Source: Methylococcaceae bacterium (GTDB taxonomy: Bacteria; Pseudomonadota; Gammaproteobacteria; Methylococcales; Methylococcaceae). Taken from it: DNA of 34,268 bases. The notes under the pieces are model-generated. The model ran no database searches. It was not told the DNA's origin and saw only the letters and a program-made list of their open reading frames with translations. Below are positions 8,148 through 22,180 of the stretch, in pieces. The position numbers were made by a program, and so were the translations under genes. The stretch spans positions 1 to 34,268 of the forward strand of contig JAQTSI010000008.1 in assembly GCA_028711365.1 (NCBI GenBank), read 5' to 3'. Every line of letters starts with the position of its first letter. The first letter of the stretch is position 1.

Positions 8148-8283
8148 TACGCGAGCAATGTGAATATTTAACAGATAATTAATACTATAAAATACCACAC
8201 AAAGGCAAGTCTTTTTTTGCCGGGCTTGGCGCCGAATCGGGCGTAGCCATTATTGAGGTTTACTTGAATCTAGGGTGAGAGTC

Positions 8284-9753
8284 ATGAACGCTGTAAAATC
8301 TGAAAACCAATCCGTCTCTTCGGTCATCGATGCGGCGATGATGTCCGCGGCACAAAGAAGAGTCGATGATTTCAAACGCTTACGTCAGTTGGGCATGCTG
8401 CCGAAGGATGGAGATTTTTTTCCATCGGTGCATTACCCACCCATCACGATGTATCCCCCCACCACCGAGGATGAACTGTTCCAGGGGTATACGGTGCCGG
8501 CAGACGGTTTGTTCGATGTCTATGTCCACATACCTTTTTGCCTGCAGCGCTGCACTTTCTGTCATTATCCCGTCAAGTTAGGCAAGAATACCTCGGACGA
8601 GAAAGACAGGTACCTGGTTGCATTGGCCAAGGAAATGAGCCTATATCGGGCGCGGCTGGGGTTGGTGGATCGCATTAAAGCGCGTTCCATACTGGTAGGT
8701 GGCGGTACGCCGACTTTCCTGAATATTCCGCAAATGCGATATTTCTTCGAGTTCTTCAATGAAAATGTCGAGGTGGCAGAAGGCACGCAATTCAACTACG
8801 ACGTCGATCCCAATACCCTGCTGGGCGAGGAAGGCAGGCAGCGCCTGCAAATCATGAAGGACAATGGCGTGAATCGCTTGACGATTGGCGTTCAATCGCT
8901 CAATGACGAAGTGCTGTTCAAAATGAACCGGCACCATTCCGCGGAGCAGGCTATCGATTCGATTCGGGTTTCCCGAGAAATGGGATTTCAGGTCAACATA
9001 GAGTTTATCTATGGTTATCCCGGGGAGACATTGGAGAATTGGGCGGCAGTGATCGAGCAAGCAGCGCAGCTCGACGTCGAGGAAATCCAGATGTATCGGC
9101 TCAAAGTCGAGGCTTATGGCGATTACCAGGGGCCGATCAAGAACGTCAAGGAAAAACATCCCGAAAGGATACCGGAGATCGATGAAACCCTGGAGATGAA
9201 ACAGATCGCCATCGAAATACTGAATAAGCATGGCTACCATGAAAACCTGCGCCGGGTTTATAGCCGCAAGCCGGAGCATTATTCGCATTATGCCCACAAC
9301 CAGTGCTGCATGCTGTACGACGAAGTGGGGTTCGGCTTGACCGCTTTCAGCAGCCTCAGAGACCGTTTCGCTCTCAATACCCAGTATTTCGACGAATATT
9401 ATTCGCTCATCGATTCGGGGAAACTGCCCATCAACCGCGGCATTGTGCGCACCAAAGAAGAACAGCAGCGCTGGGCGATCGTTTTGCCGCTCAAGAATCG
9501 CACGGTGCGAAAACGCGATTTCCAGCGCGCGACGGGGGAATCCATCGAAGGCAAATTCTCCGACAAATTCGCCGCCCTCAAAGAGCATGGCTTGATCGAG
9601 GAAACCGAAAGGGAGATTAAACTCACCCCGCTCGGCTGCTTTTTTGCGGACGAGGTCGTGCAGCAGTTTCATCAAACCGAGTTCATGCCTTTTCCCGAAA
9701 CAAACTACGAACCGGGTCCATTGTGCCCCTATCACCATAACCATGTGGATTAA
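8284..9753 (+). CDS. HemN/HemW-like radical SAM enzyme
   Basis: This 489-residue protein has the CX3CX2C cluster-binding motif typical of radical SAM enzymes (HIPFCLQRCTFCHYP, Cys at about 86, 90 and 93). It also has the GGGTPT motif (VGGGTPTFL) that contacts S-adenosylmethionine. The sequence around FNYDVDPNTLL, VNRLTIGVQSLNDEVL and IEFIYGYPGET is characteristic of the coproporphyrinogen-dehydrogenase-like (HemN/HemW/HutW) family, and a winged-helix-like HemN C-terminal segment follows (about 400-470). Known members do oxidative decarboxylation, haem chaperoning, haem ring opening or radical methylation, so the reaction is open. It is the first gene of an eight-gene collinear cluster. A housekeeping porphyrin role is unlikely, given the second radical SAM gene, a methyltransferase and exporters downstream. 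The ATG at 8284 is preceded by AGGGTGAG; a GTG at 8275 would add three residues. Confidence 0.8.
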   Translation: MNAVKSENQSVSSVIDAAMMSAAQRRVDDFKRLRQLGMLPKDGDFFPSVHYPPITMYPPTTEDELFQGYTVPADGLFDVYVHIPFCLQRCTFCHYPVKLGKNTSDEKDRYLVALAKEMSLYRARLGLVDRIKARSILVGGGTPTFLNIPQMRYFFEFFNENVEVAEGTQFNYDVDPNTLLGEEGRQRLQIMKDNGVNRLTIGVQSLNDEVLFKMNRHHSAEQAIDSIRVSREMGFQVNIEFIYGYPGETLENWAAVIEQAAQLDVEEIQMYRLKVEAYGDYQGPIKNVKEKHPERIPEIDETLEMKQIAIEILNKHGYHENLRRVYSRKPEHYSHYAHNQCCMLYDEVGFGLTAFSSLRDRFALNTQYFDEYYSLIDSGKLPINRGIVRTKEEQQRWAIVLPLKNRTVRKRDFQRATGESIEGKFSDKFAALKEHGLIEETEREIKLTPLGCFFADEVVQQFHQTEFMPFPETNYEPGPLCPYHHNHVD

Positions 9754-9819
9754 TTTGACACTTCGAATTCGGCCTTTGGCGTCGATCATCAATTTCCAGA
9801 ACTCGCGATGGGGCGATAT

Positions 9820-10554
9820 ATGATCCGTTCTAGCAAGCAATGGCATTGGGCCGTGGGCCTCTCATTACTGTTCGGTTTGGGGACGAGCCCATGGGCCGTT
9901 TCTGAAATGGGGTCGACCGGCCATTTGCCGCGTGATGCTCAACAGATACCGGGGCAGGAAGGGCCTCCGCCACCGGGCGGCATGATGCCGGGCGCCGACC
10001 CGTTTCACCTGCTCATGAATAGTCGAGAAGTGCAAGCCGATCTCGGGCTGACCGAAACCCAGATACGGCATTTATCCCGAGTCGATGCCGATTTCCTGAC
10101 CAAAATGCGGGAGTCCTCGGCTTCGCCCGAACAGATGCAGCAGCAGATGCAGGAAGGCCAGATGAAGATTGCCAAGGTGTTGAGCACCGAGCAACTCGAC
10201 CGGTTCAAGGAGATCATGTTTCAGATCGAAGCGCCCTGTAACCTGATGCGGGAAGTCGAAGATTTAGAAAGGCTGCAACTGACTCCGGCTCAAACCGGGC
10301 AGGTCGACGGATTGTGTCAAGGCATGTGGGGAAAAATCCGCTCGCTGGCGGAAGAGGCCCACCGGAGTCAGCCCAATGATCCCTGTACCGCCATGATGAC
10401 GGTTAGGGCTCAAGAACAGAACATGAAAAGTCAAATTCAGAAAGACATCGACCAGATATTGACCGGAGCTCAGAAAAAAATCTACGGCGAGATGAAAGGG
10501 CGCCCGATCCATTTACCCCCCATGAGGCCCCCAGCCTGTGACAAAAATTCTTGA
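9820..10554 (+). CDS. Spy/CpxP-like (LTXXQ) periplasmic protein
   Basis: The 244-residue product starts with a signal peptide (HWAVGLSLLFGLGTSPWAVS) followed by a Pro/Gly/Met-rich stretch (GPPPPGGMMPGADP). Two LTXXQ-type motifs follow (LGLTETQIRHL and LQLTPAQTGQVDGL), with alpha-helical, Gln/Met-rich sequence between them. This is the layout of the Spy/CpxP family of ATP-independent periplasmic chaperones and metal-stress sensors. It is longer than classical Spy (about 160 residues) and contains a tandem-like duplication plus Cys residues at PCNLM, GLCQG, DPCTAMM and PPACDKNS, which could bind metal or form disulphides (inference). It lies between two radical SAM genes; the downstream one starts 10 nt after its stop, so it is almost certainly co-transcribed. 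The ATG at 9820 is preferred because it begins the signal peptide directly; an in-frame ATG lies at 9808. Confidence 0.65.
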   Translation: MIRSSKQWHWAVGLSLLFGLGTSPWAVSEMGSTGHLPRDAQQIPGQEGPPPPGGMMPGADPFHLLMNSREVQADLGLTETQIRHLSRVDADFLTKMRESSASPEQMQQQMQEGQMKIAKVLSTEQLDRFKEIMFQIEAPCNLMREVEDLERLQLTPAQTGQVDGLCQGMWGKIRSLAEEAHRSQPNDPCTAMMTVRAQEQNMKSQIQKDIDQILTGAQKKIYGEMKGRPIHLPPMRPPACDKNS

Positions 10555-10564
10555 GGAATCTCCT

Positions 10565-11572
10565 ATGATCGCCATCAACACGACTTTCCCCATTATCGAC
10601 CGATTGCAGAGTTCCCCGGTCGATCGGGATGATATTTTGACGCTTCTGACCGCGACCGGAGCGTTGCAGGAAGAGTTATTTCGACGGGCCAGGGACATGC
10701 GGCATACCCATTGCGGCGACTTGGTCCATCTGCGGGGCGTCATCGAAATCTCGAATTACTGTCAGAAAAGTTGCAGCTATTGCGCCATCCGTGCGCCCAA
10801 CAAGGAGTTGGACCGTTATCGGATGTCTGCCGAGGAAATACTCGATATCGCCGGTCAAATCCATAATACCGGCATCAGGATCATATTCATACAGGCAGGA
10901 CAGGATCCGAAATGCGATGAAATCCTCGAAACCGTCATCCCCAAGATCAAACAGCAATTCAATACCGAAGTGCTGCTGTGTTTGGGAGAGCGTTCCAAGG
11001 AAACCTATCGACATTTCCGCGATCTCGGCGCCGATTCTTACATATTGAAGTATGAAACCTCCGATCCGGTGCTTTATGAGATGACGGCGTTGACGCCATT
11101 GAAGAATCGTTTGGACTGTGCCCGCTCGATCAAGCAAGTCGGGATGAAACTGGGTGTGGGTAATATCATCGGCTTGCCCGGCCAAAATTTTGAAAGCCTG
11201 GCGGATGATATCCTGTTGGGATATGAACTCGAACCGGATTTCGTCAGCGCATCACCTTTCATCGCCAATGAACACACGCCCTACGAGGATTCGCCGGCAG
11301 GTGACTTCAATGTGACGCTCAATACCATGGCCATCAACCGGCTGATGCACAAAACCTGCTTATTGCCGACCGTGAGCGCCTTGGAGAAAATCTATCCGCA
11401 CGGCCAGCTCATGGGCTTGAATGCGGGCGCCAATGTCATCACCATCAATTTCACGCCTTCGAGTCGCCGCGAAAACTATGCCATATACTCCAGCCACCGC
11501 TTCATCGTCAGCCGGGACCATGCGCTGCACATCATTCAGCAAGCAGGCTTGAAGGCCGAGATTTTTCAATGA
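10565..11572 (+). CDS. HydE/PylB/BioB-like radical SAM enzyme
   Basis: The 335-residue protein has a CX3CX2C motif (ISNYCQKSCSYCAIRAPN, Cys at about 66, 70 and 73). It shows the BATS/HydE-type layout: a helical N-terminus, GVIEISNYC, IIFIQAGQDP, CLGERS, DSYILKYETSDPVLY and GNIIGLPGQ. The family includes HydE (hydrogenase maturation), PylB (methylornithine mutase), BioB and related enzymes. KYETSDPxLY with GLPGQ is especially HydE/PylB-like. No HydF, HydG, hydrogenase or pyrrolysine genes are in the window, so the substrate is unknown. A GAGGA ribosome-binding site 7 nt before the ATG at 10565 fixes the start. Its stop overlaps the next ATG as ATGA at 11569-11572, indicating translational coupling to the methyltransferase. 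Confidence 0.8.
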   Translation: MIAINTTFPIIDRLQSSPVDRDDILTLLTATGALQEELFRRARDMRHTHCGDLVHLRGVIEISNYCQKSCSYCAIRAPNKELDRYRMSAEEILDIAGQIHNTGIRIIFIQAGQDPKCDEILETVIPKIKQQFNTEVLLCLGERSKETYRHFRDLGADSYILKYETSDPVLYEMTALTPLKNRLDCARSIKQVGMKLGVGNIIGLPGQNFESLADDILLGYELEPDFVSASPFIANEHTPYEDSPAGDFNVTLNTMAINRLMHKTCLLPTVSALEKIYPHGQLMGLNAGANVITINFTPSSRRENYAIYSSHRFIVSRDHALHIIQQAGLKAEIFQ

Positions 11573-12714
11573 GTTCAAGACTGATGATGAGAGATCCCAT
11601 GGCGACTCGCAAATCCAATGGTGTACGGAGCTTGGTCGGCGCGCTCATGCTGCAGGCGGTTGGCGCCACCGCGGCCGAGCAAGCCCCGACCCCGCCACCC
11701 CCGATTCCCATCGTTTCCGGGACGGCGGCGCAAGCTTCGCTGGTTCATGTGGGAGGGAACGATACTTTTGCCATTACTCCCGATGGCCGCCGGGCAGGCA
11801 CCCTTTTTTATGAAGCGCTGAAAGGCAAGAAAAAGAACGCCAAGGAATCGGCGCTGCAGGCCATAGAGTTATGGGACAAGATCATTCCGCAGGAAAACTA
11901 CGGCGGCGAATATACCGCTTTGCAGTGGTTCGCCACTTACTTCGTGGCCGATCCAACCCAGCGTGACGAGATGCTCAAAGACCCCTTCGTCAATGAGTTT
12001 TTCCATCTTTTTGCCGACAACAAATATGCCGTTCTCAAGGAATACATCAACCGCAAGTACCATGTCGAAGACATCGGTGACGAAGAGACCTATACGGGGC
12101 AAACCCGCAAGGCGTGGTTGGAGGACACCATTTTGTTCAATAATCCGCGCCGCGAGGAATGGGAGCGAACCAGTCAGGTCATGGAGTTGATCGATCTGAA
12201 GCCCGGCGACAGCATCGCCGACATCGGCAGCGGGCCGGGCTACTATACCTTCCGTTTCGCGCAGAAGGTGGGGCCTACGGGCAAGGTCTATGCGATCGAT
12301 ACCGTCGAGGATCACCTCAAGTATGTCGGCAAGACCGCCAAGAACACCGGCATCGGCAATATCGATCTGATTCACACCGATGGCAAAACCTTAGGTCTAG
12401 CGGATGCCAAGGTCGATGCGGTATTCATGTGCTCGCTTTATCACAATATCTATGCCATGTCGGCGGAGCCCGAGCGAGTGGAACTGGTGGAAAGCATCAA
12501 GAGCGCGCTCAAGGATGACGGCACCTTTTATCTCGTCGACAATGGTTTGGTGCCTCCGGGAACCTTGCCTTACCATGGGCCTTACATCGCCAAGGAGTTG
12601 ATCATTCAACAACTCACCGCCTTCGGATTCAAGCTCGTTCAAGCCGAAAACAAGATACCGCAAAGATATATCCTGATTTTCAAGAAACAAGCCGCCAAAA
12701 AGGATCCTGCCTGA
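11569..12714 (+). CDS. SAM-dependent class I methyltransferase with an apparent signal peptide
   Basis: The 381-residue product has a Rossmann methyltransferase domain in its second half. Motif I is IADIGSGPGYYTF (217-228), the acidic residue after beta-2 is D244 (VYAIDT), then IDLIHTDGKTLG and VDAVFMCSLYHNIY. The first about 200 residues are unusual. Residues 18-38 (GVRSLVGALMLQAVGATAAEQ) look like a Sec signal peptide with an A-x-A cleavage site, followed by a Pro-rich linker and a helical domain I cannot name. S-adenosylmethionine is normally cytoplasmic, so either the N-terminus is not cleaved or the true start is internal. The ATG at 11569 overlaps the upstream stop; ATGs at 11584 and 11599 are alternatives and keep the signal-like segment. 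The target is unknown. Position between a radical SAM gene and transporters suggests a tailoring step in the same pathway. Confidence 0.7.
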   Translation: MSSRLMMRDPMATRKSNGVRSLVGALMLQAVGATAAEQAPTPPPPIPIVSGTAAQASLVHVGGNDTFAITPDGRRAGTLFYEALKGKKKNAKESALQAIELWDKIIPQENYGGEYTALQWFATYFVADPTQRDEMLKDPFVNEFFHLFADNKYAVLKEYINRKYHVEDIGDEETYTGQTRKAWLEDTILFNNPRREEWERTSQVMELIDLKPGDSIADIGSGPGYYTFRFAQKVGPTGKVYAIDTVEDHLKYVGKTAKNTGIGNIDLIHTDGKTLGLADAKVDAVFMCSLYHNIYAMSAEPERVELVESIKSALKDDGTFYLVDNGLVPPGTLPYHGPYIAKELIIQQLTAFGFKLVQAENKIPQRYILIFKKQAAKKDPA

Positions 12715-12748
12715 CAAGCCGGCAGCGGGTCGAAAATTGATTCCTGAC

Positions 12749-13642
12749 ATGGACACCAAACTCATCGGGGTTTGCGCCGCCTTGGGTTCGGCGGCGAGCT
12801 GGGCCTTGGGTGCGATCTTGTTCAAGCAATTGGGCGATTCGATACCTCCCATTGCGATGACCTTGGCGAAGGGGGCGGTTAGCGCCATCTTGCTGGGGCT
12901 TGCCCTGCTCGCCGTCGGTTACGAGGAGCTGGACGGGACCCCCCTGTGCATTCTGGTCGCCAGTGGCTTGCTGGGCATTTCGGCAGGCGATACCTTCTTC
13001 TTCGCCGCGCTGCGCGATCTCGGCGCTTATGCCGTCGTGGTGTTGTTGATGCTGGGGCAGGTGTTGACGGTCGTGCTGGCCGTGCTCTTGCTTGATGAGC
13101 AATTGTCGATCGCGGAACAGGCAGGGATAGCCCTCACCATCGCCGGCGTCAGCCTGGTCTTGTTTATCCAGGCCAGGAACGAACCGGCATCGAAATCCAG
13201 GCTCTTAGGGATATTCTACGGTTCGATGTCGATCATCTGCATGTCGGCATCGCTGCTCATCGCCAAACCGGTCCTGGAGACGACTTCCAGCATTCAGGCG
13301 ACGTTCATCCGCATGTTCGCCGGCATGCTGGGCATATTGCTCTTCGGCGTGATCGGCCGGCAACTGAACGGTTTTTTCAAGCCCTTCACCGAATTCAGGC
13401 TGGCCGGCCGTTTCGTTCTATCGGTTTGCATCGTCACTTTCGGCGGCTTCTGGCTGTCTCTGGTGGCGGTGAAATACCTTGATGTCTCCATCGCCAATAC
13501 GCTCAACTCGACCGAGCCCTTGTTCGTGCTTCCCCTGGCGGTGATCTTTTTGAAGGAAAGGATTACCTGGCTGATCGTGCTGGGCAGCGTGATGGCCTTT
13601 GCCGGGGTCGCAATGCTGATCGGCGGCTGGATTCCGGTATGA
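12749..13642 (+). CDS. EamA/DMT-family transporter
   Basis: The 297-residue protein has about ten hydrophobic segments arranged as two EamA repeats. The first opens with [20 protein letters not shown], and the second begins near [20 protein letters not shown]. The hallmark end-of-repeat sequences are present ([19 protein letters not shown], and [23 protein letters not shown] near the C-terminus). Drug/metabolite transporters of this kind usually export small metabolites or amino acids across the inner membrane. The gene follows the methyltransferase by 34 nt and its stop overlaps the ATG of the ABC ATPase (ATGA at 13639-13642), tying it to the downstream exporter. The ATG at 12749 is used; a TTG at 12737 would add four residues. 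The substrate is unknown, but export of the cluster's product or an intermediate is plausible. Confidence 0.8.
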
Positions 13643-14367
13643 ATTCCCAGGGGCTTGACGAGAATCCGCCTCTGTTTCGGATTCGCGATCTTACCAAGAT
13701 CTACCGAAGCGGGGAGGTGGAGGTTCAGGCGCTGCGCGGGGTGGATCTCGAACTTTACCGGGGCGAGTTCATCGTCTTGTTGGGCCCTTCCGGTAGTGGC
13801 AAATCGACCCTGCTCAATATCCTGGGCGGCCTGGACATGCCGACCAGCGGCCAGGTGTCGTTCCGCGACGTGGACCTGGGCGAGTTGGACGAGCGGGGCA
13901 GGACCCTCTACCGGCGCGATACCATAGGCTATGTATTCCAATCCTATAACCTCATTTCCGGTCTGACGGCCCGGGAAAATGTCGCCTTGGCGACCGAGAT
14001 CGTTGCCAATCCCCTGTCTCCTGAAACGGCGCTGGGTTTGGTCGGTCTGGCGGATCGAATGGATCATTTCCCCTCGCAACTGTCGGGGGGAGAGCAGCAG
14101 CGGGTTTCCGTCGCCCGCGCCATTGCCAAGCGGCCCGCCATCTTGTTGTGCGATGAACCCACCGGAGCGCTGGACAGCAATACCGGCATCGTCGTGCTCG
14201 AGGTGATTCAGGACGTCAGCCGAAAACTCGACACCACCACCGTGTTGATTACGCATAATGTCGCCATCGCCGATCTTGCCGATCGAGTCGTGTCGTTCGC
14301 GAATGGCAAAATCTCCGAGGTGAGGAACAACGAGCGCAAGCGTTCGGCGAGAGAGCTTTCCTGGTAG
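13639..14367 (+). CDS. ABC transporter ATP-binding protein (MacB/LolD/DevA type)
   Basis: A 242-residue ABC ATPase with Walker [10 protein letters not shown] (49-57), Q-loop YVFQSYNL, signature LSGGEQQRV (148-156), Walker B ILLCDEP followed by TGALD, and switch His in VLITHN. The compact single-domain form and [10 protein letters not shown] sequence place it with the LolD/MacB/FtsE-type ATPases. These pair with FtsX-fold permeases rather than classical importers. It overlaps the upstream EamA gene by four bases and is followed after 6 nt by an FtsX-type permease, then a HlyD-type adaptor. This is the layout of DevBCA- or MacAB-like tripartite exporters that push substrates from the inner membrane or periplasm outward. 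The outer-membrane TolC-type partner is not in the window. Confidence 0.9.
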
Positions 14368-14373
14368 GCATTC

Positions 14374-16743
14374 ATGAACGCCCTCGATAGAAAGTTGCTG
14401 CGCGACCTCTGGCGGCTGCGGGGTCAGGTCATCGCGATCATCCTGGTGACCGCGGCCGGTGTCGCGGCTTTCATCATGGCGATGGCCACCGTCGATTCCA
14501 TCGAGGTGACCCGCACCGCCTATTACGAGCGCTACCGGTTTGCCGAGGTGTTTTCCGCGCTCCGCCGCGGTCCCGAAACCCTGGTTCCCCGCATCGCCGG
14601 CATCCCCGGCGTCCAGCAAGTCAGCACCGGCATCGCCCATAATGTCATACTCGACATCGAGGGCATGGAAGAGCCGGTCAATGGCCTGCTGGTCTCGGCC
14701 CCGGAGAAAGGGCCGGAATCCCTCAATAATATCCATATACGCAGTGGCCGACTGATCCGTCCCGGCTCTAGCGATGAAGTCGTCGTCAGCGAACCTTTTG
14801 CCCGGGCAAACCAACTGCTGCCGGGCGCATCGCTGTATGCAAACCTGAAGGGACAGAAGCGCAAACTCCATGTCGTCGGTGTCGCCTTGTCGCCCGAATA
14901 CATTTTTTTCGCCGTGCCGGGCACCCTCTCGCCCGATGACCGCCGGTTCGGCGTCATGTGGATGGACCGTAAAGCGCTCAGCAATGCTTTCGACCTGGAT
15001 GGCGCGTTCAACAATCTTGCGCTCACATTGCAGCCGAATGCCTCCGAGTCGGAGGTGATCGGCCGGCTGGACAGGATGTTGGTCGATTATGGCGGGGTGG
15101 GAGCTTATGGGAGGGCCGATCATATTTCCCACGCCACCCTCAACGGTGAAATCACCCAGTTGCGCGCCAGTATCCATATCGCCGCGCCGGTCTTCCTGGG
15201 CGTCATCGCTTTCCTCCTGCATATGCTGATGATGCGTCACATCGAAACCGAGCGCGAGCATATCGGTATCTTGAAAGCCTTCGGTTATGGTGATTCCCAG
15301 GTCGCCTGGCATTATGCGAAATTCGTCATCCTGATCGTCGCTGTGGGGGTCATGATCGGCATGGGAGGAGGCGTCAAACTGGGCCGCACGGTGACGGAAA
15401 CCTATGCGGAGCATTATCACTTTCCGTTCCTGGAATACGGTTTGCGCTCTTCGGTTTTCTTCGAGGCCATCGCCGCCTATGGCATGGCGGGCTTGATCGG
15501 CGCCTGGGGCAGCATGCGCCGCGCCGCCAGGCTCGAACCCGCGGTGGCGATGAGGGCGCCTCCGCCGCCGGTCTATCGGCGCACCTGGATCGAAGGCTTG
15601 GGTATCGTCCTGTTGCTCGATCAATCGACGCGCATGATCTTGCGCCATATCATCCGCTGGCCGATGCGCTCCGCCTTGACGATATTCGGCATCGCCGCGG
15701 CCATCGCCATCCTGATCTCGCCGTTCGGCATTACCGGGTCGGTGGACAAGATGATCGACACCCATTTCTTTCAGGCGGAACGGCAGGATTTGACGATGTC
15801 GTTCGCGCAGGAAAGACACAGCAGCGCCATCTATGATCTCGTGCTTGCCCCGGGGGTGCTGCGCATCGAGGGATTTCGCGCCGTACTCGCCTCGGTAGGT
15901 TTTGGCGGTAAATCGCGCCGCATCACGGTGCTCGGGCGACAAGCCGATGGCGTGTTGACTCGCGCCCTGGACCGCCGGCAGCGGCCGATCCCCTTGCCCG
16001 ACCGGGGAGTGACCCTGTCCAGTTCGATGGCCCAGTGGTTAGGGGTGAGCGCGGGGGATTACGTCAGCCTCGAATTCTTGCAAGGGCGGCGCATGAGCCG
16101 GCAGGTTCCCGTCACCGCGATCACCGACAGCTACATAGGACTGTCCTTCTTCACCCTGTTCATGGACCGGGGCATCCTCAATGCGTTGATGATGGAGGGG
16201 GATGTCATTTCAGGCGTGCATCTGAAGATCGATCCGCTTCAGCAACAGAGCCTCTACGCCAAAATCAAGGAAATACCGTCCATCACCGGCGTCATCTCTC
16301 ATGGCGCATCGCTGGCGACGATGCGAAGACTGTTGCAGGAGACGCTGAAGCTGACTTTCGTCAATGGCATGTTCGCGGTCATCATCATTTTTGGCGTTAT
16401 TTATAATAATGCGCGCATTTCCTTCACCGAGCGCAGCAATGACTTCGCCACCATGCTGCTGATCGGCTATGGCCGCCGCGATGTCTATTTCATCGTGCTG
16501 GGCGAACTGACGCTGTTGACCCTCGCCGCCATGCCCTTGGGCTGTCTGGGCGGCTATGCGTTTGCCTGGATGTTGACGGAGGGTACGGCCAACGAGGTGT
16601 TTCGGACCCCCCTTCACATCGAATCGCGGGCGTTCGGAATCGCGATGTTGTTCGCCTTGCTCTCGGTGCTGATATCGAGCATCACGGTGCTGATGAAGGT
16701 TAACAAGATGGATATCGTCGAAGTATTGAAAACGAGAGAATAA
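14374..16743 (+). CDS. ABC exporter permease with two FtsX domains
   Basis: The 789-residue protein has an N-terminal membrane segment (QVIAIILVTAAGVAAFIMAMA), a large periplasmic domain and a central FtsX block (about residues 265-390). A second membrane anchor follows at about 430-450 (ALTIFGIAAAIAILISPFGI), then another periplasmic domain and a C-terminal FtsX block (about 660-785). That duplicated layout matches long FtsX/MacB_PCD permeases of the DevC/LolCE-like superfamily, which form a mechanotransmission-type exporter rather than a channel for bulk solute. The cytoplasmic coupling helix HIETEREHIGILKAFGYGDSQV, with a matching C-terminal copy around RSNDFATMLLIGYGRRDV, is the expected ATPase contact. 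It sits between its ATPase and adaptor genes with 6- and 26-nt gaps. The substrate is not deducible; relatives move lipids, lipoproteins, glycolipids or peptides. Confidence 0.85.
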   Translation: MNALDRKLLRDLWRLRGQVIAIILVTAAGVAAFIMAMATVDSIEVTRTAYYERYRFAEVFSALRRGPETLVPRIAGIPGVQQVSTGIAHNVILDIEGMEEPVNGLLVSAPEKGPESLNNIHIRSGRLIRPGSSDEVVVSEPFARANQLLPGASLYANLKGQKRKLHVVGVALSPEYIFFAVPGTLSPDDRRFGVMWMDRKALSNAFDLDGAFNNLALTLQPNASESEVIGRLDRMLVDYGGVGAYGRADHISHATLNGEITQLRASIHIAAPVFLGVIAFLLHMLMMRHIETEREHIGILKAFGYGDSQVAWHYAKFVILIVAVGVMIGMGGGVKLGRTVTETYAEHYHFPFLEYGLRSSVFFEAIAAYGMAGLIGAWGSMRRAARLEPAVAMRAPPPPVYRRTWIEGLGIVLLLDQSTRMILRHIIRWPMRSALTIFGIAAAIAILISPFGITGSVDKMIDTHFFQAERQDLTMSFAQERHSSAIYDLVLAPGVLRIEGFRAVLASVGFGGKSRRITVLGRQADGVLTRALDRRQRPIPLPDRGVTLSSSMAQWLGVSAGDYVSLEFLQGRRMSRQVPVTAITDSYIGLSFFTLFMDRGILNALMMEGDVISGVHLKIDPLQQQSLYAKIKEIPSITGVISHGASLATMRRLLQETLKLTFVNGMFAVIIIFGVIYNNARISFTERSNDFATMLLIGYGRRDVYFIVLGELTLLTLAAMPLGCLGGYAFAWMLTEGTANEVFRTPLHIESRAFGIAMLFALLSVLISSITVLMKVNKMDIVEVLKTRE

Positions 16744-16769: not shown

Positions 16770-17987
16770 ATGTCGGTATTGAGCGGCAAGAAAGTGTTTA
16801 TTCTGGTGGGGGCGGCGCTTTTCGTCCTGCTGGCCGTTCTGCTGGGACCCAAACCCATGCCGGTGGATGTCGGAAAACTGGGCAGGGGGCCGTTGCAGAT
16901 CACCGTCGAGAGCGAGGGGCGCACCCGGATCAAGAATATTTATGCCATCTCGGCGCCGGTCGCCGGGCGTCTGTTGCGAAGTCCGTTGAAAGCAGGCGAT
17001 GCCGTCGAGGCCGGGAAAACCGTCTTGGCGAGAATCGATCCGCCCATTCCGGAGTTCCTGAACTCCCGCACCTTGGCCGAACGCAAGGCCAAAGTCGAAT
17101 CGGCCGTGGCACTGTGCGAACTGGCCAAGGCCGAAGTCACTCGCGCCAGGGCCGCCCTCGATTTCTCGCGGGCCGAGTTGGCGCGCAATCAAGCTTTGGT
17201 GGTCAAGCGGCTGGTGGCGCCTCAAGTCCTGGAACAGGCGCAGTTGGCGGTTCGCACCAAGGAGGCGGAATTGGCGGTGGCCGAAATGACGCGGAAGTCG
17301 CGCGAGGCGGAACTGGAGATGTCACGCGCCTTGCTCATGCCCACCAAAGCCGCCGTCACCGGTTCCGGTGGAGGAAATCTGATCGAACTGATCGCGCCGA
17401 TCAGCGGAAAGGTGCTGAGGGTGCTGGAAGAGAGCGAGGGTCTCGTCGCCGTGGGTAAACCCCTGTTGGAGATAGGCGATCCCACCGATCTGGAGGTTCT
17501 GGTCGAGATGCTGTCGGAGAACGCCGCCAAGGTGAGGGTAGGGCAGGAGGTTCGTATCTTGAGATGGGGGGGCAAAACCCTGAAGGGCCGCGTTCGTCGG
17601 ATCGAGCCTTATGGATTCATCAAGATATCGGCTCTAGGCATCGAAGAACAGCGTGTCAATGTGTTGATCGACTTCGATGAGCCGATCGAAAACTGGCACA
17701 CCATGGAGCATGGCTATCGAGTCGATGTGCAAGTGGTCATTTGGGAACACAACGACGTGCTCAAGATCCCCATGGGCGCCTTGTTCCGGGACGGCAACGA
17801 ATGGGCCGCTTACCGCATCTCGGACCACAGGGCGCAGATGCTCCCTGTCAAAATCGGGCAATCCACTAATCAGGAGGCTGAGGTGGTCAGCGGTTTATCC
17901 GAATCCGATCAGGTCATTCTGCACCCCAGCGACCGCCTGCGCAGTGGGGATCTGGTGATGGACCGGCTGGAAATGGAAAACCGCTAA
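16770..17987 (+). CDS. HlyD/MacA-type periplasmic adaptor of the ABC exporter
   Basis: The 405-residue protein starts with an uncleaved-type membrane anchor (VFILVGAALFVLLAVLLGP). Next come the first half of a biotinyl-lipoyl-like domain (IYAISAPVAGRLLRSPLKAGDAVEAGKTVLARID), a long alpha-helical hairpin (about 90-190, many Ala/Glu/Arg heptads) and the second half (IELIAPISGKVLRVLEESEG). Beta-barrel and membrane-proximal domains complete it. These membrane-fusion proteins bridge an inner-membrane pump to an outer-membrane TolC-like duct. It is the last gene of the collinear cluster and follows its permease by 26 nt. No clear hairpin plus T-run follows the stop; the nearest structure is the long inverted repeat at 18063-18148. 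Confidence 0.85.
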   Translation: MSVLSGKKVFILVGAALFVLLAVLLGPKPMPVDVGKLGRGPLQITVESEGRTRIKNIYAISAPVAGRLLRSPLKAGDAVEAGKTVLARIDPPIPEFLNSRTLAERKAKVESAVALCELAKAEVTRARAALDFSRAELARNQALVVKRLVAPQVLEQAQLAVRTKEAELAVAEMTRKSREAELEMSRALLMPTKAAVTGSGGGNLIELIAPISGKVLRVLEESEGLVAVGKPLLEIGDPTDLEVLVEMLSENAAKVRVGQEVRILRWGGKTLKGRVRRIEPYGFIKISALGIEEQRVNVLIDFDEPIENWHTMEHGYRVDVQVVIWEHNDVLKIPMGALFRDGNEWAAYRISDHRAQMLPVKIGQSTNQEAEVVSGLSESDQVILHPSDRLRSGDLVMDRLEMENR

Positions 17988-18199
17988 TTTATCTCGCTGC
18001 ACGGGATTGCCGCGCCAAGGATTGGGTCCAAAATAATTTCCCGAAATTAACATTCGTGGTTCCGGCAAGGATCGCCAGAACCTGGGCTCCAGGGATGGCG
18101 TGGCCATCGAGTGTCCATGCAGCCTGGATACCGGCGATCCTTGCCGGTATAACGGTGCTTTGAACGAAAGTGCCGTTTGATCAATCAGGGAAGTTGTTT
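17988..18199. other. Intergenic stretch after the exporter operon
   Basis: No gene is visible between the adaptor stop and the small membrane-peptide frame on the other strand. The only notable content is the palindromic element at 18063-18148. The DNA has no run of T residues that would make a simple terminator. Confidence 0.5.
18063..18148. repeat. Long palindromic (REP/dispersed-repeat-like) element
   Basis: Perfect 15-bp inverted arms, CCGGCAAGGATCGCC at 18063-18077 and GGCGATCCTTGCCGG at 18134-18148, enclose 56 bases. The interior holds smaller hairpins of its own (CCTGG-gct-CCAGG and ATGGC-gtg-GCCAT). The tail CCGGCGATCCTTGCCGGTATAACG has the look of dispersed intergenic palindromes seen in many proteobacterial genomes, but only one copy is in this window, so dispersal is inferred. 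It could also help terminate the upstream operon. Confidence 0.55.
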
Positions 18200-18307
18200 T
18201 CAGCCATATCCCAAGTCCCGTGAAACGCCCGCCATCATGAAGGAAATGGCGACTACGATGATGGCAACATCGGGAATGTTAAGGAAAATGTCGGGAATGC
18301 TGATCAT
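18200..18307 (-). CDS. Possible small membrane peptide, 35 aa
   Basis: ATG at 18305-18307 to TGA at 18200-18202 encodes a very hydrophobic peptide (MISIPDIFLNIPDVAIIVVA, then ISFMMAGVSRDLGYG). One membrane span is likely. The upstream ribosome-binding site is weak and I recognise no family. It lies beside a decayed-looking stretch and may itself be a remnant. Confidence 0.25.
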   Translation of the reverse strand: MISIPDIFLNIPDVAIIVVAISFMMAGVSRDLGYG

Positions 18308-18340
18308 GATGTAGACCCTGCTAAGGAAGACATAGGTTCA

Positions 18341-18577
18341 TCAAACCATCATGCTGGGAATGTTGAATCCGAAGATGATCTCGATAGGGATCGGCATGAT
18401 GGCTTGATGGATCGAGAAGATTGCTATGCCGATCGACGCGATCATGAAATGAATCGGTCTCTTCGTCTGTTTGATCGGCACGACCAAGCCGCGTCCAACG
18501 ATTGAACCGTACCCCCACTGGCCGATCGATGCCAGGGGCAAACATTGACCATTAAACTGCCAATCGCGAGCGTCCAA
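18341..18577 (-). pseudogene. Possible remnant of a DUF3309-like small membrane protein
   Basis: A 78-codon frame contains the stretch LPLASIGQWGYGSIVGRGLV. It loosely follows the LPxWxxSxxWGYxPSGGLGLV core that I associate with the small DUF3309 membrane proteins. What follows does not keep the family's simple hydrophobic tail and the sequence before it does not look like its N-terminus, so I read this as a decayed copy rather than a working gene. The resemblance is short and could be chance. Confidence 0.25.
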
Positions 18578-18772
18578 TGGATGCCCAAAGTTCGCCCTAA
18601 CCGGACACTCGGCATGCGCCTTTCATTTCATTCGAGCGACAGCTTTCAGGATCCCCTAGTAATTCCATATCTTGGCTAACGAAGGTGTAGAAAAAACAAT
18701 TTCTGGCGGTGTTAACGGATGCAATTGTTTGATTTATATAGGCTGACATTGCAATAAAAAAGATTTTCTACA

Positions 18773-18819
18773 GCCTCAACGCAAAGCTCAACGGAGTCCG
18801 CTGGAGCGTTGGATTAGGC
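18773..18819 (-). repeat. attC-like site, short (after antitoxin-like gene F)
   Basis: On the minus strand it runs from GCCTAAT (18819-18813) to GTTGAGGC (18780-18773), with CAACGC pairing to GCGTTG and an imperfect inner stem (CAGCGGA with TCCGTTG). At 47 bases it is shorter than usual and both outer boxes carry changes from consensus. The stop codon of the upstream cassette gene (18788-18790) lies inside it. Confidence 0.5.
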
Positions 18820-19012
18820 TGGTTGATGTTTTTGCTACTTCCAGCAAGTACCGAAGCGCTTTGTTGACCGCTTCATCATTAGGAAAAGCTTCTGCAATAT
18901 CAGGCTCAAGGAACATCACATTGGTTTCTGCCTTGATTCTGTTCGCATATTTGCCGCGTACAATCTCACCGAAATCTGACCGCTTATACTCTGGTCGAAC
19001 TTCATCTGTCAT
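18788..19012 (-). CDS. Small antitoxin-like cassette protein (copy F), paralogue of 21338-21577
   Basis: The 74-residue product shares a clear core with the gene at 21338-21577: EY-x(3)-DF-x(2)-(I/A)VRGKY, NV(M/V)(F/V)LEPD(I/V)A-x-AF, (N/Q)(D/N)-x-EAVN(K/Q)ALR-x-(L/M)L. I know this as a common family of small conserved hypothetical proteins in proteobacteria and cyanobacteria, often next to short toxin-like genes, so an antitoxin role is inference. The last ten codons (SLIQRSSGLR) are read from the attC-like site and match the equivalent tail of its paralogue. It is the last cassette of the array; no partner gene is visible beside it. Confidence 0.65.
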   Translation of the reverse strand: MTDEVRPEYKRSDFGEIVRGKYANRIKAETNVMFLEPDIAEAFPNDEAVNKALRYLLEVAKTSTSLIQRSSGLR

Positions 19013-19098
19013 TTAATTAAATACTGCTGCACCAGCCGCGCAAGACTCGATAGGGGGGCTAGCCCTTGCCCGACAGGGACTTTCACCCTGCAAGAAAC

Positions 19099-19115
19099 GC
19101 CGAGCTTTGCTCGGC
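19099..19115. repeat. Perfect hairpin adjacent to the attC at 19117
   Basis: GCCGAGC (19099-19105), loop ttt, GCTCGGC (19109-19115): a 7-bp perfect stem with a 3-nt loop. It sits at the cassette junction, at the 5' end of the following cassette. It may attenuate read-through between cassettes, though no T-run follows on the minus strand. Confidence 0.45.
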
Positions 19116-19116
19116 A

Positions 19117-19207
19117 CAATAACGCTCACGATCAGCGCCCCGCGCCACGAAACCCGAAAATACCAAGCCGCTTCGTGGCGCGGGTGCGCTGGAACAGTTT
19201 GTCAGGC
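19117..19207 (-). repeat. attC site, long and well folded (after cassette E)
   Basis: On the minus strand the site opens with GCCTGAC (19207-19201) and closes with GTTATTG (19123-19117). The folded arms are excellent: CAGCGC plus CCCGCGCCACGAA at 19133-19151 pairs with TTCGTGGCGCGGG-T-GCGCTG at 19172-19191. That is 19 base pairs with a single bulged base and a 20-nt loop, as expected for a single-stranded recombination hairpin with an extrahelical base. The segment from R'' through GTTCCAGCGCACC is nearly the same as in the attC at 21305-21372. Confidence 0.7.
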
Positions 19208-19429
19208 GGCTCTTAAAATGAGCTCTTCAGTCAAAATAGGAAGTTCCACAGGGGCAAAAAACGATTCAGGGTATAAATAGTCTTCCCCCGATTCATCAAT
19301 GATGCGAACTTGTCCGTGTTTTGCGGCATCTTCGTCGGGTAAAACTTCATAAAGCTTTCTCAGCTCCAAAGATGCGGCATAGTCATCGTTTTTGACACAA
19401 ACAACAAAAGAATGATTTGACATGTTCAT
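19202..19429 (-). CDS. Conserved small cassette protein (second gene of coupled pair E)
   Basis: The 75-residue product (VVCVKNDDYAASLELRKLYE, then LPDEDAAKHGQVRIIDESGE and DYLYPESFF) belongs to a widespread family of short conserved hypothetical proteins that I recognise by this pattern but cannot name. It is acidic and probably cytosolic. Its ATG overlaps the TAA of the upstream gene by one base (TAATG at 19429), so the two are translationally coupled. Its own stop lies inside the R'' box of the attC at 19117-19207. A second ATG two codons in (19423) is an alternative start. A toxin-antitoxin-like or regulatory pair is a reasonable guess from size, coupling and cassette location, without direct evidence. 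Confidence 0.7.
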   Translation of the reverse strand: MNMSNHSFVVCVKNDDYAASLELRKLYEVLPDEDAAKHGQVRIIDESGEDYLYPESFFAPVELPILTEELILRAA

Positions 19430-19662
19430 TAATCCAGATAGCGTTTAATTTTAGGTTCACGTTTGCCAATGCCTGTGGCTTCATACCAGTGAATCTCAGC
19501 AAGGCGTATTGTCCCATCCGATAGGCGCACTGAGGCAATGCCTTTTCGCTTTCTCCAATTGCCGATTCCATATTGCTTCCGAAGTCGGCCAACTTCTCGA
19601 ATCTCAGAGCCATGGGCGAAGGTTTCTGCGTTTTGAATCTCGCCCAGAACTTCAAAAAACAT
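19429..19662 (-). CDS. Conserved small basic cassette protein (first gene of coupled pair E)
   Basis: The 77-residue, strongly basic protein has a conserved-looking core (GSEIREVGRLRKQYGIGNWR, KRKGIASVRLSDGTIRLAEI and HWYEATGIGKREPKIKRYLD). I recognise this as a common small hypothetical family that often precedes the gene type found immediately downstream here. Many Arg/Lys residues suggest nucleic-acid or ribosome contact (inference). A short AGGG lies upstream of the ATG at 19662. Its stop overlaps the start of the next gene. The 190 nt upstream carry no gene, only the hairpin at 19775-19804, and may hold the cassette's own promoter. Confidence 0.7.
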   Translation of the reverse strand: MFFEVLGEIQNAETFAHGSEIREVGRLRKQYGIGNWRKRKGIASVRLSDGTIRLAEIHWYEATGIGKREPKIKRYLD

Positions 19663-19774
19663 AGTAGCCCTGTTAGCCGATTAAGTTGATTGCCTAATTT
19701 TGAATTGAGCGGTCGCTTCGGGGGAGAAAGCCGGGGTTGCATGGCTTTTGCTCTTTAACTTTTCCCCCTACCAC

Positions 19775-19804
19775 GGCGGATTGTCGCTTCGTTTCGAATC
19801 CGCC
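19775..19804. repeat. Hairpin in the leader of the cassette E gene pair
   Basis: GGCGGATT (19775-19782) and AATCCGCC (19797-19804) form an 8-bp perfect stem with a 14-nt loop. It lies between the junction at 19847-19928 and the start of the coupled gene pair. A role as terminator of the previous cassette or leader structure cannot be decided from sequence. Confidence 0.4.
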
Positions 19805-19846
19805 TTACGAGTTACGAGTTGCCCGACCTGGCTCGTTCCTCACGCG

Positions 19847-19928
19847 ATCTAACCATATTCGTTAGGCCAGTTTGTTGGTTAGACATGTTGGCGGGCGTTC
19901 TTCACCTTAACCTTGCGCGGGCTTAGAC
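19847..19928 (-). repeat. Rearranged attC region with a cluster of recombination boxes
   Basis: Minus-strand order: GTCTAAG (19928-19922, holding the upstream gene's TAA), GTCTAAC (19884-19878), GCCTAAC (19867-19861), GTTAGAT (19853-19847). The last three lie within 38 bases, with 10- and 7-nt spacers, and no long stem connects the outer boxes. It looks like one or more attC sites that lost their central hairpins, possibly after imprecise recombination. Confidence 0.45.
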
Positions 19929-20194
19929 TCGTACTTTTCCTGTTCCACCACATGCAGTACATATGGCCTCGCTAATATGCTCTTCTCTATATTCCCCAAC
20001 AGCCTTCCTGCAATAATCGCAGGAGTACGTTCCATACAATAATTTCCAAGGTCCCTGTGTAGACATGCCGGTACCGCCACAATGAGCGCAATCTATATGT
20101 TGCTTCTGGAATGCCCTGAAACAGGATACCCACAATGAGGGCAAGGTGCTGCAACATCTGAAATGCAACCAGCGCACTCGGGGCATGTTATCAA
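19923..20194 (-). pseudogene. Frameshifted double zinc-ribbon cassette gene
   Basis: Two zinc-binding halves lie in different frames. From a TTG at 20194 one frame gives LITCPECAGCISDVAAPCPH, then CGYPVSG, a classic CxxC...CPHCG zinc ribbon, and stops at 20093. The second half, AFQKQHIDCAHCGGTG...CDYC...ICTACGGTGKVRV, has DnaJ-type CxxCxGxG knuckles. It sits in another frame that is open back to 20186 and ends at 19923. The two join naturally near 20115-20122, so a single-base insertion or deletion (or a sequencing error) most likely splits one original protein of about 85-90 residues. The frame reading MPRVRW from 20186 is therefore only the out-of-frame leader of the second half. The stop overlaps an R''-like box, making this a cassette gene. 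Function unknown. Confidence 0.65.
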
Positions 20195-20224
20195 GCCATA
20201 TATTCGCTCTTATTGAATGCTGCT

Positions 20225-20290
20225 GCCTAACGTAAAGGTGAGGGGCGTGGAGCGAGCGGCAGCGCCGTTTGCGGAGCGTCCCTCTCGACC
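20225..20290 (-). repeat. attC-like site after the oxidoreductase cassette
   Basis: The R' box GTTAGGC (minus strand, 20231-20225) is perfect. GAGGGGCG (20240-20247) pairs with CGTCCCTC (20277-20284) over 8 bp with one G.U pair, and inner GC-rich repeats (GGAGCG twice) follow. The R'' box next to the gene's stop is not recognisable, so the site is probably damaged on that side. Confidence 0.5.
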
Positions 20291-20866
20291 CTAGAGTCCG
20301 CGCCGACCAAGCTCACGCACCGATGTCAGGAACGCAGCTAGAGTCTCTGGCGTGGCGTCTTTGGCACGGTAGAGTGCTTTGCGGCGCACCGGACGGAAGC
20401 CACAGTGGCGCAACACCGCACGAGATACCCACCGCCAGAATAGATCGCCGCGAAAGAGCCAGCCAGCAAGCTGTGGTGAATTCTGCGTGTAGAGCACCCG
20501 GGCCGACCGGCCGGAAAGCAGCGGCTCCACATAAGGAAACCGCGCGTGATATCGCATTGCAAAGCCGGGGAGAAATACCCGGTCGATATAGCCCTTAAGA
20601 AGAGCCGGGGCGCTCCACCACCAGTTTGGCGAGACTACGACAAGATGCTCGCACCATTTGATGAGGTCTTGCTGTTGCGCGATGTCCGGCTCCAGGGGTT
20701 TCAGGCTGTGGAAGCCGCCGCGCAAGACGAGATCGAACTGAAGCGCTCTCAGCGCGACGCTGCGTACTTCGTGCCCCTCTTCTTGTGCGCCAGCGAGGTA
20801 CGCCGCCGCTATGGCATCGGAGAGACTGCCTTCGTCCGGATGGGCGTTTAGAAGAAAGATTCGCAT
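20291..20866 (-). CDS. NAD(P)H:quinone-oxidoreductase-like flavodoxin-fold protein
   Basis: The 191-residue product starts MRIFLLNAHPDEGSLSDAIA, the FMN/FAD-binding opening of the flavodoxin_2 (NQO1/MdaB/KefF-like) family. The family's second signature, LVVVSPNWWWSAPALLKGYIDRVFLPGFA, is complete at about residues 75-105. Relatives are soluble FAD or FMN enzymes that reduce quinones by two electrons. LYTQNSP and the tail VLRHCGFRPVRRKALY fit the same fold. It is the largest cassette of the array and the only one with a clear metabolic assignment; quinone detoxification or redox stress protection is likely. The ATG at 20866 begins the conserved strand directly. The upstream ribosome-binding site is weak, as often in cassettes. 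Confidence 0.85.
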   Translation of the reverse strand: MRIFLLNAHPDEGSLSDAIAAAYLAGAQEEGHEVRSVALRALQFDLVLRGGFHSLKPLEPDIAQQQDLIKWCEHLVVVSPNWWWSAPALLKGYIDRVFLPGFAMRYHARFPYVEPLLSGRSARVLYTQNSPQLAGWLFRGDLFWRWVSRAVLRHCGFRPVRRKALYRAKDATPETLAAFLTSVRELGRRGL

Positions 20867-20891
20867 ACGGTCCGGTCGTTGAACTGGTGCC

Positions 20892-20908
20892 GTCTAACGT
20901 TGTTAGGC
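20892..20908 (-). repeat. Collapsed attC (R''-R' boxes only)
   Basis: On the minus strand GCCTAAC is followed after three bases by GTTAGAC, both perfect consensus boxes, with the central hairpin of a normal attC missing. The stop of the lipoprotein gene (20910-20912) lies immediately before it, exactly where an attC should start. Confidence 0.55.
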
Positions 20909-20909
20909 A

Positions 20910-21278
20910 TTACTTAAAGGCACTTTGAATAACGAAACCGAAGTGCGGGGTGGGATTGCTTACAATAATCTGATCCCCCGTCGACTTTTCAATAACATAT
21001 CCATCAAATATTTTTTCCTGGCCCCCTTGTAGGTTGCCGTAGACTTTCACTTTCTCGTCGGGAGAAAGATTCAATTTCTTATGTTCTAGCAACTTTGCCC
21101 TAACAAAAATTGAGCCGGTATTGTCTGCCAGAGTAAAACCATTTTGTTCAAGTTGGGTCACCGTCCCTTCGATTGTGCTTACCGGTGGTAATGCCAAATT
21201 CTTGATGGGTGTCGTGCCAGCGCAGCCACTTGTTATCAAAATAACCCCGGCCAATAGATACAAATAGCGAGTCTTCAT
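20910..21278 (-). CDS. Small OB-fold-like lipoprotein in a cassette
   Basis: The 122-residue product has a lipoprotein signal peptide with lipobox ITSGC (MKTRYLYLLAGVILITSGCA). After it comes a short beta-rich domain: IEGTVTQLEQNGFTLADNTG, SIFVRAKLLEHKKLNLSPDE, KVKVYGNL, DGYVIEKST. This pattern resembles the bacterial OB-fold (YgiW/DUF5666-like) proteins, which act in the periplasm and may bind small ligands. Localisation at the inner or outer membrane face is inferred from the lipobox; residue +2 is Ala, not Asp, so outer-membrane sorting is likely. The ATG at 21278 is preferred; a TTG at 21284 is in frame two codons earlier. An AAGGA lies upstream. Confidence 0.75.
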   Translation of the reverse strand: MKTRYLYLLAGVILITSGCAGTTPIKNLALPPVSTIEGTVTQLEQNGFTLADNTGSIFVRAKLLEHKKLNLSPDEKVKVYGNLQGGQEKIFDGYVIEKSTGDQIIVSNPTPHFGFVIQSAFK

Positions 21279-21304
21279 TTCCAATGTATCCTTTTCGTTG
21301 ATAT

Positions 21305-21372
21305 GCCTAACGCCTGCGTTCAGCGCCCGGCGCGGCTTTATTGCGCTGGTGCGCTGGAACGGTTTGTTAGGC
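21305..21372 (-). repeat. attC site, complete (after antitoxin-like cassette A)
   Basis: On the minus strand it opens with GCCTAAC (21372-21366) and closes with GTTAGGC (21311-21305), both perfect boxes 68 bases end to end. CAGCGC pairs with GCGCTG as the arm next to the boxes, with a GC-rich centre. The stop codon of the upstream gene (21338-21340) lies inside the site. The left half matches the attC at 19117-19207 closely. Confidence 0.75.
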
Positions 21373-21577
21373 TAGATGTTTGTTTGGCGAATTGGAGCAT
21401 TGCTCTTAATGCTTGGTTGACGGCTTCTGCATTTTGGAAAGCAGCGGCAACATCCGGTTCGAGAACAACGACATTCGAGCTTTCGAGGTATTGTTTGTAG
21501 TACTTGCCCCGTACAGCCTTGGAAAAATCGAAGTTATATTCCGATCGAAGCTCGTCTTGTAATTCTTCAGGATTCAT
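21338..21577 (-). CDS. Small antitoxin-like cassette protein (copy A)
   Basis: The 79-residue product (MNPEELQDELRSEYNFDFSK, AVRGKYYKQYLESSNVVVLE, PDVAAAF, EAVNQALRAML) is a clear paralogue of the protein at 18788-19012. The ATG at 21577 is set by GAGAGGAAA upstream; an in-frame TTG at 21637 would add 20 residues without family character. About the last eleven codons, SLTNRSSAPAQ, are encoded by the attC site. A short coiled-coil gene lies 53 nt upstream on the same strand, so the two may form a unit such as a toxin-antitoxin module. That is inference from size and pairing only. Confidence 0.7.
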   Translation of the reverse strand: MNPEELQDELRSEYNFDFSKAVRGKYYKQYLESSNVVVLEPDVAAAFQNAEAVNQALRAMLQFAKQTSSLTNRSSAPAQ

Positions 21578-21630
21578 AAGATTTCCTCTCGTGAGCAGTC
21601 GCAGGTCTGGCGCTGATAATGCGGACCTCG

Positions 21631-21777
21631 CTAGCACTTTCTGTATGGGACACCACCAGAGGTTTCTAGGCTCGTGATTCGGATGGCTAGTTCGCTTAGC
21701 TTGCCTTCGATACGATCTTGACCGGCTCTTAAGGCGCGCAGAGGTTCGAGAACAAGATTTTCGACGTCTTCGGTCAT
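21631..21777 (-). CDS. Short coiled-coil protein, 48 aa, probably truncated
   Basis: The ATG at 21775-21777 has a good AAGGA seven bases upstream. The product (MTEDVENLVLEPLRALRAGQ, DRIEGKLSELAIRITSLETS, then GGVPYRKC) matches the start of a familiar family of short coiled-coil proteins that begin NLVLEHLRxIR and continue for another 30-60 residues. Here the heptad pattern stops at SLE and an unrelated tail follows, so the gene seems cut near its middle. It is the first gene of the array on the minus strand. Confidence 0.6.
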   Translation of the reverse strand: MTEDVENLVLEPLRALRAGQDRIEGKLSELAIRITSLETSGGVPYRKC

Positions 21778-21840
21778 GGCGTTTCCTTTTTGGCTTTGCG
21801 GATGGGGTTGGGTTGGGGATTTGTGGGTGCTTCTAGCTTA

Positions 21841-22050
21841 CTACGACTGTAACTTACCCAACAGCAATCTCCTCCCTGCCCAATCCTCGAACGCCGCCAT
21901 CCTTTCGCTCTCCCGTTTGCCGGCTTCGATCCATTCCAACATGGCCGGGTACTCGAGCCCCTGGTTCACAGAGTCCTGCCCTGAGATTCCGGCTTCCAGT
22001 CGATAAGTATGGAAACGCAAGGCAACCGGCGCATACATCGCATCCAAAAA
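21841..22050 (-). pseudogene. Truncated glutathione S-transferase (C-terminal fragment)
   Basis: The encoded stretch DAMYAPVALRFHTYRLEAGI...YPAMLEWIEAGKRES is the conserved C-terminal helical core of bacterial glutathione S-transferases (pattern D-A-M-x-A-P-V-x-x-R-F-x-T-Y ... P-A-M-x-E-W). Only about 67 residues remain. The frame upstream (MKKTMERECQFPDRLN...) has no GST character and the thioredoxin-like N-terminal domain is absent. The break lies next to a 9-bp perfect hairpin at 22077-22097 and at the upstream edge of the cassette array, so rearrangement around the array probably destroyed the gene. Confidence 0.65.
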
Positions 22051-22076
22051 ATAGTGCTGGCATCGATCTGATGTCA

Positions 22077-22097
22077 GCCATCGCCGTTGGCGATGGC
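22077..22097. repeat. Perfect hairpin at the GST breakpoint
   Basis: GCCATCGCC (22077-22085), loop gtt, GGCGATGGC (22089-22097): a 9-bp perfect stem. No T-run follows on either strand, so it is not a standard terminator. It lies just outside the last recognisable GST sequence. Confidence 0.5.
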
Positions 22098-22180
22098 GGC
22101 GTGATGAAACATCAATATTCAGCCGGTCCGGAAACTGGCATTCTCGCTCCATCGTTTTTTTCAACCCATGGGAGCAGAAA

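Follow-up and report, generated by a model that had tools for sequence, protein, structure and literature searches.

The stretch of DNA analysed here (hereafter the window) comprises 34,268 nucleotides of a Methylococcaceae contig and carries, on the forward strand at 11569–12714, a gene for a predicted exported class I S-adenosylmethionine (SAM) methyltransferase (MTase), recognised by profile match, predicted structure and comparison with homologues. The open reading frame is uninterrupted and encodes 381 residues counted from 11569, where the ATG overlaps the stop codon of an upstream HydE-like gene. The in-frame ATG at 11599, which yields a protein of 371 residues with a more compact leader, is the more likely start, and alignment rows taken from 11602 begin at codon 2 of this reading. 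The protein comprises a signal-peptide-like leader (MATRKSNGVRSLVGALMLQAVGATA; 11599–11673), assigned from sequence, hydropathy comparison and a pLDDT below 50, followed by a proline-rich linker apparent from the sequence (APTPPPPIPIVS, PTPPPPIPI; 11683–11718). An N-terminal helical domain (11731–12189) was delimited by homologue comparison and the structure model, and a Rossmann-type class I MTase domain (12190–12687) by profile match and the model. The latter contains an intact SAM motif I, DIGSGPG, at 12220–12240, which is conserved in homologues.

The MTase gene is flanked on the same strand by genes for a HemN/HutW-like radical-SAM protein with an intact CxxxCxxC motif (8275–9753), an exported LTXXQ/Spy-like protein (9808–10554), the HydE-like radical-SAM protein (10538–11572) and a DMT/EamA transporter (12737–13642), which together with the MTase are referred to as the module. 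These are followed, again on the forward strand, by an ABC ATPase (13639–14367), an FtsX/MacB_PCD permease (14374–16743) and a HlyD-family periplasmic adaptor (16770–17987), that is, by the components of a MacB-type exporter encoded together. Between 8275 and 17987, all genes share one strand and the largest intergenic gap is 54 bases, so that a single operon is likely, as predicted from gene arrangement. Further downstream, the region 18000–22150 lacks long open reading frames and contains attC-like repeats (e.g. 19120–19207 and 21308–21372) between small genes, one of them for a flavodoxin-fold protein, so that it looks like an integron cassette array. On the reverse strand, 25384–26754 encodes a fusion of a tetrapyrrole methylase with a ChuX/HutX-like haem domain, near cobalamin genes (23128–25057).

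The module proteins were compared with curated families. The HydE-like protein scored 252.4 bits against TIGR03956, just under the curated cut-off of 254.6, and its profile matched solved HydE chains at 1e-89. It is thus close to the [FeFe]-hydrogenase maturase, yet HydG above cut-off was absent from 13 of the 15 module genomes, the exceptions being two rumen genomes (G420 and G421), and was not found in the window genome. Ordinary hydrogenase maturation was therefore rejected as its general role, and a function with a hydrogenase is unlikely outside those two genomes. The HutW-like protein belongs to the same radical-SAM family as HemN/HutW and NocN and shares their CxxxCxxC cluster motif. 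Unlike HemN, HemW, HutW and STM4012 themselves, it fell far under the curated cut-offs (HutW, 141.9 against 400 bits; HemN, 160.5 against 325; HemW, 167.1 against 205; STM4012, 175.2 against 380) and has a conserved N-terminal block of its own, FFPSVHYPPIT. The Spy-like protein of the window scored 20 bits against LTXXQ (PF07813), below the gathering cut-off of 24.3, which its homologues at three other loci (L004, L013 and L017) pass. The DMT transporter matched EamA (PF00892) above cut-off in two stretches (128 bits), and the solved structures nearest to its profile include, at a weak E-value of 6e-6, SLC35B1, an ATP/ADP carrier of the endoplasmic reticulum.

Relatives of the MTase with 45–54% identity were found at 14 loci of the genome collection, where Spy-like, HydE-like, DMT/EamA and HemN/HutW-like proteins recur as neighbours, with not every locus containing all five module genes within the fetched flanks. 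In cyanobacteria and at a Desulfuromonadales locus, the genes are typically arranged as Spy, HydE, MTase, DMT, HutW, while the Verrucomicrobiota have a rearranged order with the HydE-like gene last and a different ABC protein. Across 12 loci, the four core proteins (MTase, HydE-like, DMT and HutW-like) covary in pairwise identity (Mantel r 0.73–0.94, p 0.0005). Among 291 sampled cyanobacterial genomes, the full MTase is present in four. These four and no others have a HydE-like match at E≤1e-140, and they are among the six with a HutW-like gene (E≤1e-90); in G661 and G413, the HutW-like gene is present though not adjacent. Anabaena sp. FACHB-1237 is one carrier of the module. The MacB-type pump was seen next to the module at only five loci (the window, Bradyrhizobium, L007, L013 and L014), and in the window and in Bradyrhizobium its genes come directly after the module. 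The Bradyrhizobium copy, on a plasmid typed as conjugative, consists of the Spy-like gene and MTase–DMT–ABC–FtsX–HlyD in the order of the window, with 46–67% identity over the latter five products (MTase, 56%). Its two radical-SAM genes lie ~3.4 kb beyond HlyD, on the far side of an amino-acid ABC importer, and a TolC-family gene is annotated nearby. At E≤1e-40, searches of 60 taxonomic relatives and of 348 further genomes sampled from the phylum of the window genome did not find the MTase, and vertical inheritance was rejected for the window genome on these counts. The module is regarded as a mobile operon common to distant phyla, in which membership of the MTase is well supported.

In the cyanobacterial genomes G507 and G661, both of which have the MTase, the module DMT gene is missing and only distant paralogues of it are present. 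In view of the co-occurrence pattern and of this absence, the MTase and the two radical-SAM enzymes look like the core of the module, as judged from gene content, with the DMT carrier a usual but replaceable component. Conversely, two genomes of the cyanobacterial phylum, G612 and G664, have the DMT gene and both radical-SAM genes with no recognisable MTase, and three and one N-terminally membrane-anchored proteins, respectively, take its place. At the loci concerned, the MTase position is occupied by one or three such proteins (L097, 7263–8336, reverse strand; L098, 7330–10341, forward strand). FkbM-like motifs (SYGVGYDITFE and VFVKMDIAGAE) were discerned in these proteins by eye only, and searches with Pfam, NCBIfam and PDB profiles and profile–profile comparison gave no support, so that a replacement MTase in G612 and G664 is a lead.

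These patterns bear on the function of the DMT protein, which might be a SAM transporter, or a SAM/S-adenosylhomocysteine (SAH) exchanger, feeding an MTase that methylates the Spy-like protein or another envelope component. Its gene lies directly 3' of the MTase gene in most loci, and its profile falls near that of SLC35B1, if weakly. The SAM/SAH transporter of Chlamydia is itself a member of the DMT superfamily. That organism provides a precedent for a transporter dedicated to SAM/SAH, as cited in PMC3937554. G507 and G661 retain the MTase in the absence of the module DMT gene, and G612 and G664 have the DMT gene in the absence of a recognisable MTase, which argues against an obligatory role in SAM supply. 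Against a SAM-supplying carrier also counts that no module-type DMT gene was found in flanks of up to ~9 kb around 12 of the short exported MTases described below. We consider this role rather unlikely and prefer to see the DMT protein as the carrier of a biosynthetic precursor, within the secretion pathway proposed below.

The assignment of the MTase itself was examined by profile, motif and fold. Residues ~198–330 matched Pfam Methyltransf_31 at 3e-14 (53.3 bits against a cut-off of 27). The AlphaFold2 model, with a mean pLDDT of 82 and values below 50 up to residue ~44, begins with a disordered stretch, which leads into a helical bundle and then a Rossmann MTase. Its top structural matches are SAM methyltransferases, the closest being 3dh0 from Aquifex (Z 21.6, rmsd 2.1 over 185 residues). 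Homologues conserve DxGxGPG (motif I) as well as the acidic residue that follows β2. Together, these data assign the protein to genuine SAM-fold class I methyltransferases, in keeping with the earlier note, which had described a full SAM-binding fold behind a signal-like leader and a proline-rich linker. The same note had pointed to an unrecognised domain of about 140 residues ahead of the fold and suggested predicting its structure. This domain proved real, with ~150 residues and no match in Pfam. Modelled alone, it is all-helical (pLDDT 82) and found no counterpart in the PDB with Foldseek at E≤0.001. It is closed by a near-invariant block, LED.ILFNNPRREEWE, and among the relatives examined it occurs only in module members. 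In Kiritimatiellae, the protein is a ~677-residue fusion of two MTase-like halves (L015, 6933–8963; L016, 6930–8966), of which the first has a degenerate SAM motif, DYGCRQG.

It is conceivable that the exported protein is no longer a methyltransferase and that the SAM fold has been reused for another periplasmic ligand. To our knowledge, SAM is not to be expected in the periplasm, and the degenerate motif in the extra half of the Kiritimatiellae proteins would fit such reuse. Invariance of motif I and of many further MTase-domain residues across phyla, together with the very low dN/dS of the mature part reported below, makes this explanation unlikely, and the protein is treated hereafter as a predicted active methyltransferase.

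Export was assessed from the leader and its conservation. The best 15-residue mean hydropathy was at least 1.48 in all 18 module homologues and at least 1.67 in all 13 shorter relatives, compared with at most 1.02 in each of 12 cytoplasmic-type controls, among them the two radical-SAM proteins of the module and a different MTase encoded in the window. The window leader, at 1.71, is moderately hydrophobic. Leaders in other phyla differ in sequence and are of the same type, with the hydrophobic h-region of Sec export in every homologue examined and its positive n-region in most. Cleavage is predicted before AEQ (after ATA), the AXA site having been read by eye, and several homologues have an obvious cleavable leader, such as that from Bradyrhizobium (...YASPWPAHS↓Q). 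In six close pairs, dN/dS, calculated from the printed dN and dS values, was about 0.16–0.49 in the leader against about 0.04–0.10 in the mature part. The leader is thus under purifying selection and therefore translated and constrained, which makes a downstream start unlikely in homologues; such a start, or homologues devoid of the leader, had been named at the outset as grounds for abandoning export, and no leader-less protein was encountered among the homologues examined. Export to the periplasmic side is accordingly well supported as a predicted localisation. A cytoplasmic function, either through a reverse anchor, as in the earlier suggestion of a membrane-tethered protein whose domain lies in the cytoplasm, or through a start at the in-frame ATG at 11647 beyond most of the leader, would suit the moderate hydrophobicity in the window but is very unlikely given the positive charge ahead of the hydrophobic segment in most members (N-in/C-out), the cleavable leaders and the purifying selection.

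Beyond the module, short exported class I methyltransferases were found at a further set of loci (L028–L041, L057, L059 and L103–L105). Most resemble the window protein in having a leader, an MTase domain, an ER..WQKP-like block and an LPYQY.L.F-like C-terminus, and they differ from it in having neither the module neighbours nor an N-terminal helical domain. With their lipobox-like leaders (LAGC and FAAC), two of these proteins look like lipoproteins. A second, shorter exported MTase (L008, 745–1524, reverse strand) is encoded ~6 kb from a module copy on the same cyanobacterial contig. On a Methylosinus plasmid, a short exported MTase (L104, 4803–5534) lies directly 3' of feoB and a FeoC-like regulator, which is a hint of a link with iron.

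Known systems offer partial analogies. Pseudomonas pyoverdine is completed by periplasmic enzymes (PMC6206403), and MacB homologues expel their substrate from the periplasm without inner-membrane transport (PMC5985334). The pyoverdine system (PvdE, periplasmic PvdQ/P/O/N and PvdRT-OpmQ) thus resembles our model in its cytoplasmic precursor, exported tailoring enzymes and MacB-type pump, and differs in that the window would employ a radical-SAM-derived precursor, SAM-dependent tailoring and a DMT carrier instead of the ABC protein PvdE; no NRPS was detected among the module genes scanned. In the pseudopaline cnt system, the EamA protein CntI brings the product to the periplasm ahead of a tripartite pump, MexAB-OprM (PMC9774294), which parallels the DMT inner-membrane step and the outer-membrane pump proposed here; the module differs in its additional exported MTase and radical-SAM enzymes, and no CntL/CntM-type gene was seen in it. 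The open-access literature searched contained no description of the module, no mention of a periplasmic, exported or extracytoplasmic methyltransferase and no precedent for periplasmic SAM chemistry. Tailoring in the periplasm before secretion is a known principle, in which SAM chemistry would be unusual.

From the conserved leader, the intact SAM motif, the gene module and the radical-SAM co-occurrence, all of them directly observed, and from the analogy with pyoverdine, pseudopaline and MacB, we propose, with about even confidence, that the exported MTase is a late tailoring enzyme of a mobile operon for the production and secretion of a small molecule. In the cytoplasm, a precursor, possibly amino-acid-like, would be assembled by the HydE-like and HemN/HutW-like radical-SAM enzymes, and the DMT carrier would take it across the inner membrane. 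In the periplasm, the last processing site to judge from the exported enzyme and the MacB-type pump, the MTase would methylate it, perhaps aided by the Spy-like protein, and the ABC/FtsX/HlyD pump would expel the product across the outer membrane. As to the chemistry of the product, the amino-acid importer next to the module genes of Bradyrhizobium offers a hint at most. Periplasmic methylation would be the most economical reading, against which count the adjacency of the pump in some loci only and the persistence of the MTase in G507 and G661 without the module DMT gene. We also know of no periplasmic SAM source, which likewise weighs against the pathway. True periplasmic SAM methylation served by a dedicated inner-membrane SAM supply, and spread between phyla as a mobile operon, appears doubtful.

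Of the original interpretation, export of a genuine SAM-fold enzyme has held up, and what it missed is the operon context, through which the question becomes one about a conserved module for export and modification and no longer about a solitary odd protein. Export signals are found on class I methyltransferases in several phyla, and the conserved, co-transferred module provides this puzzle with a genetic context, namely defined neighbours, candidate carriers of substrate or SAM and genomes that would allow its deletion. Methylation outside the cytoplasm, if real, would oblige bacteria to deliver SAM to that compartment.
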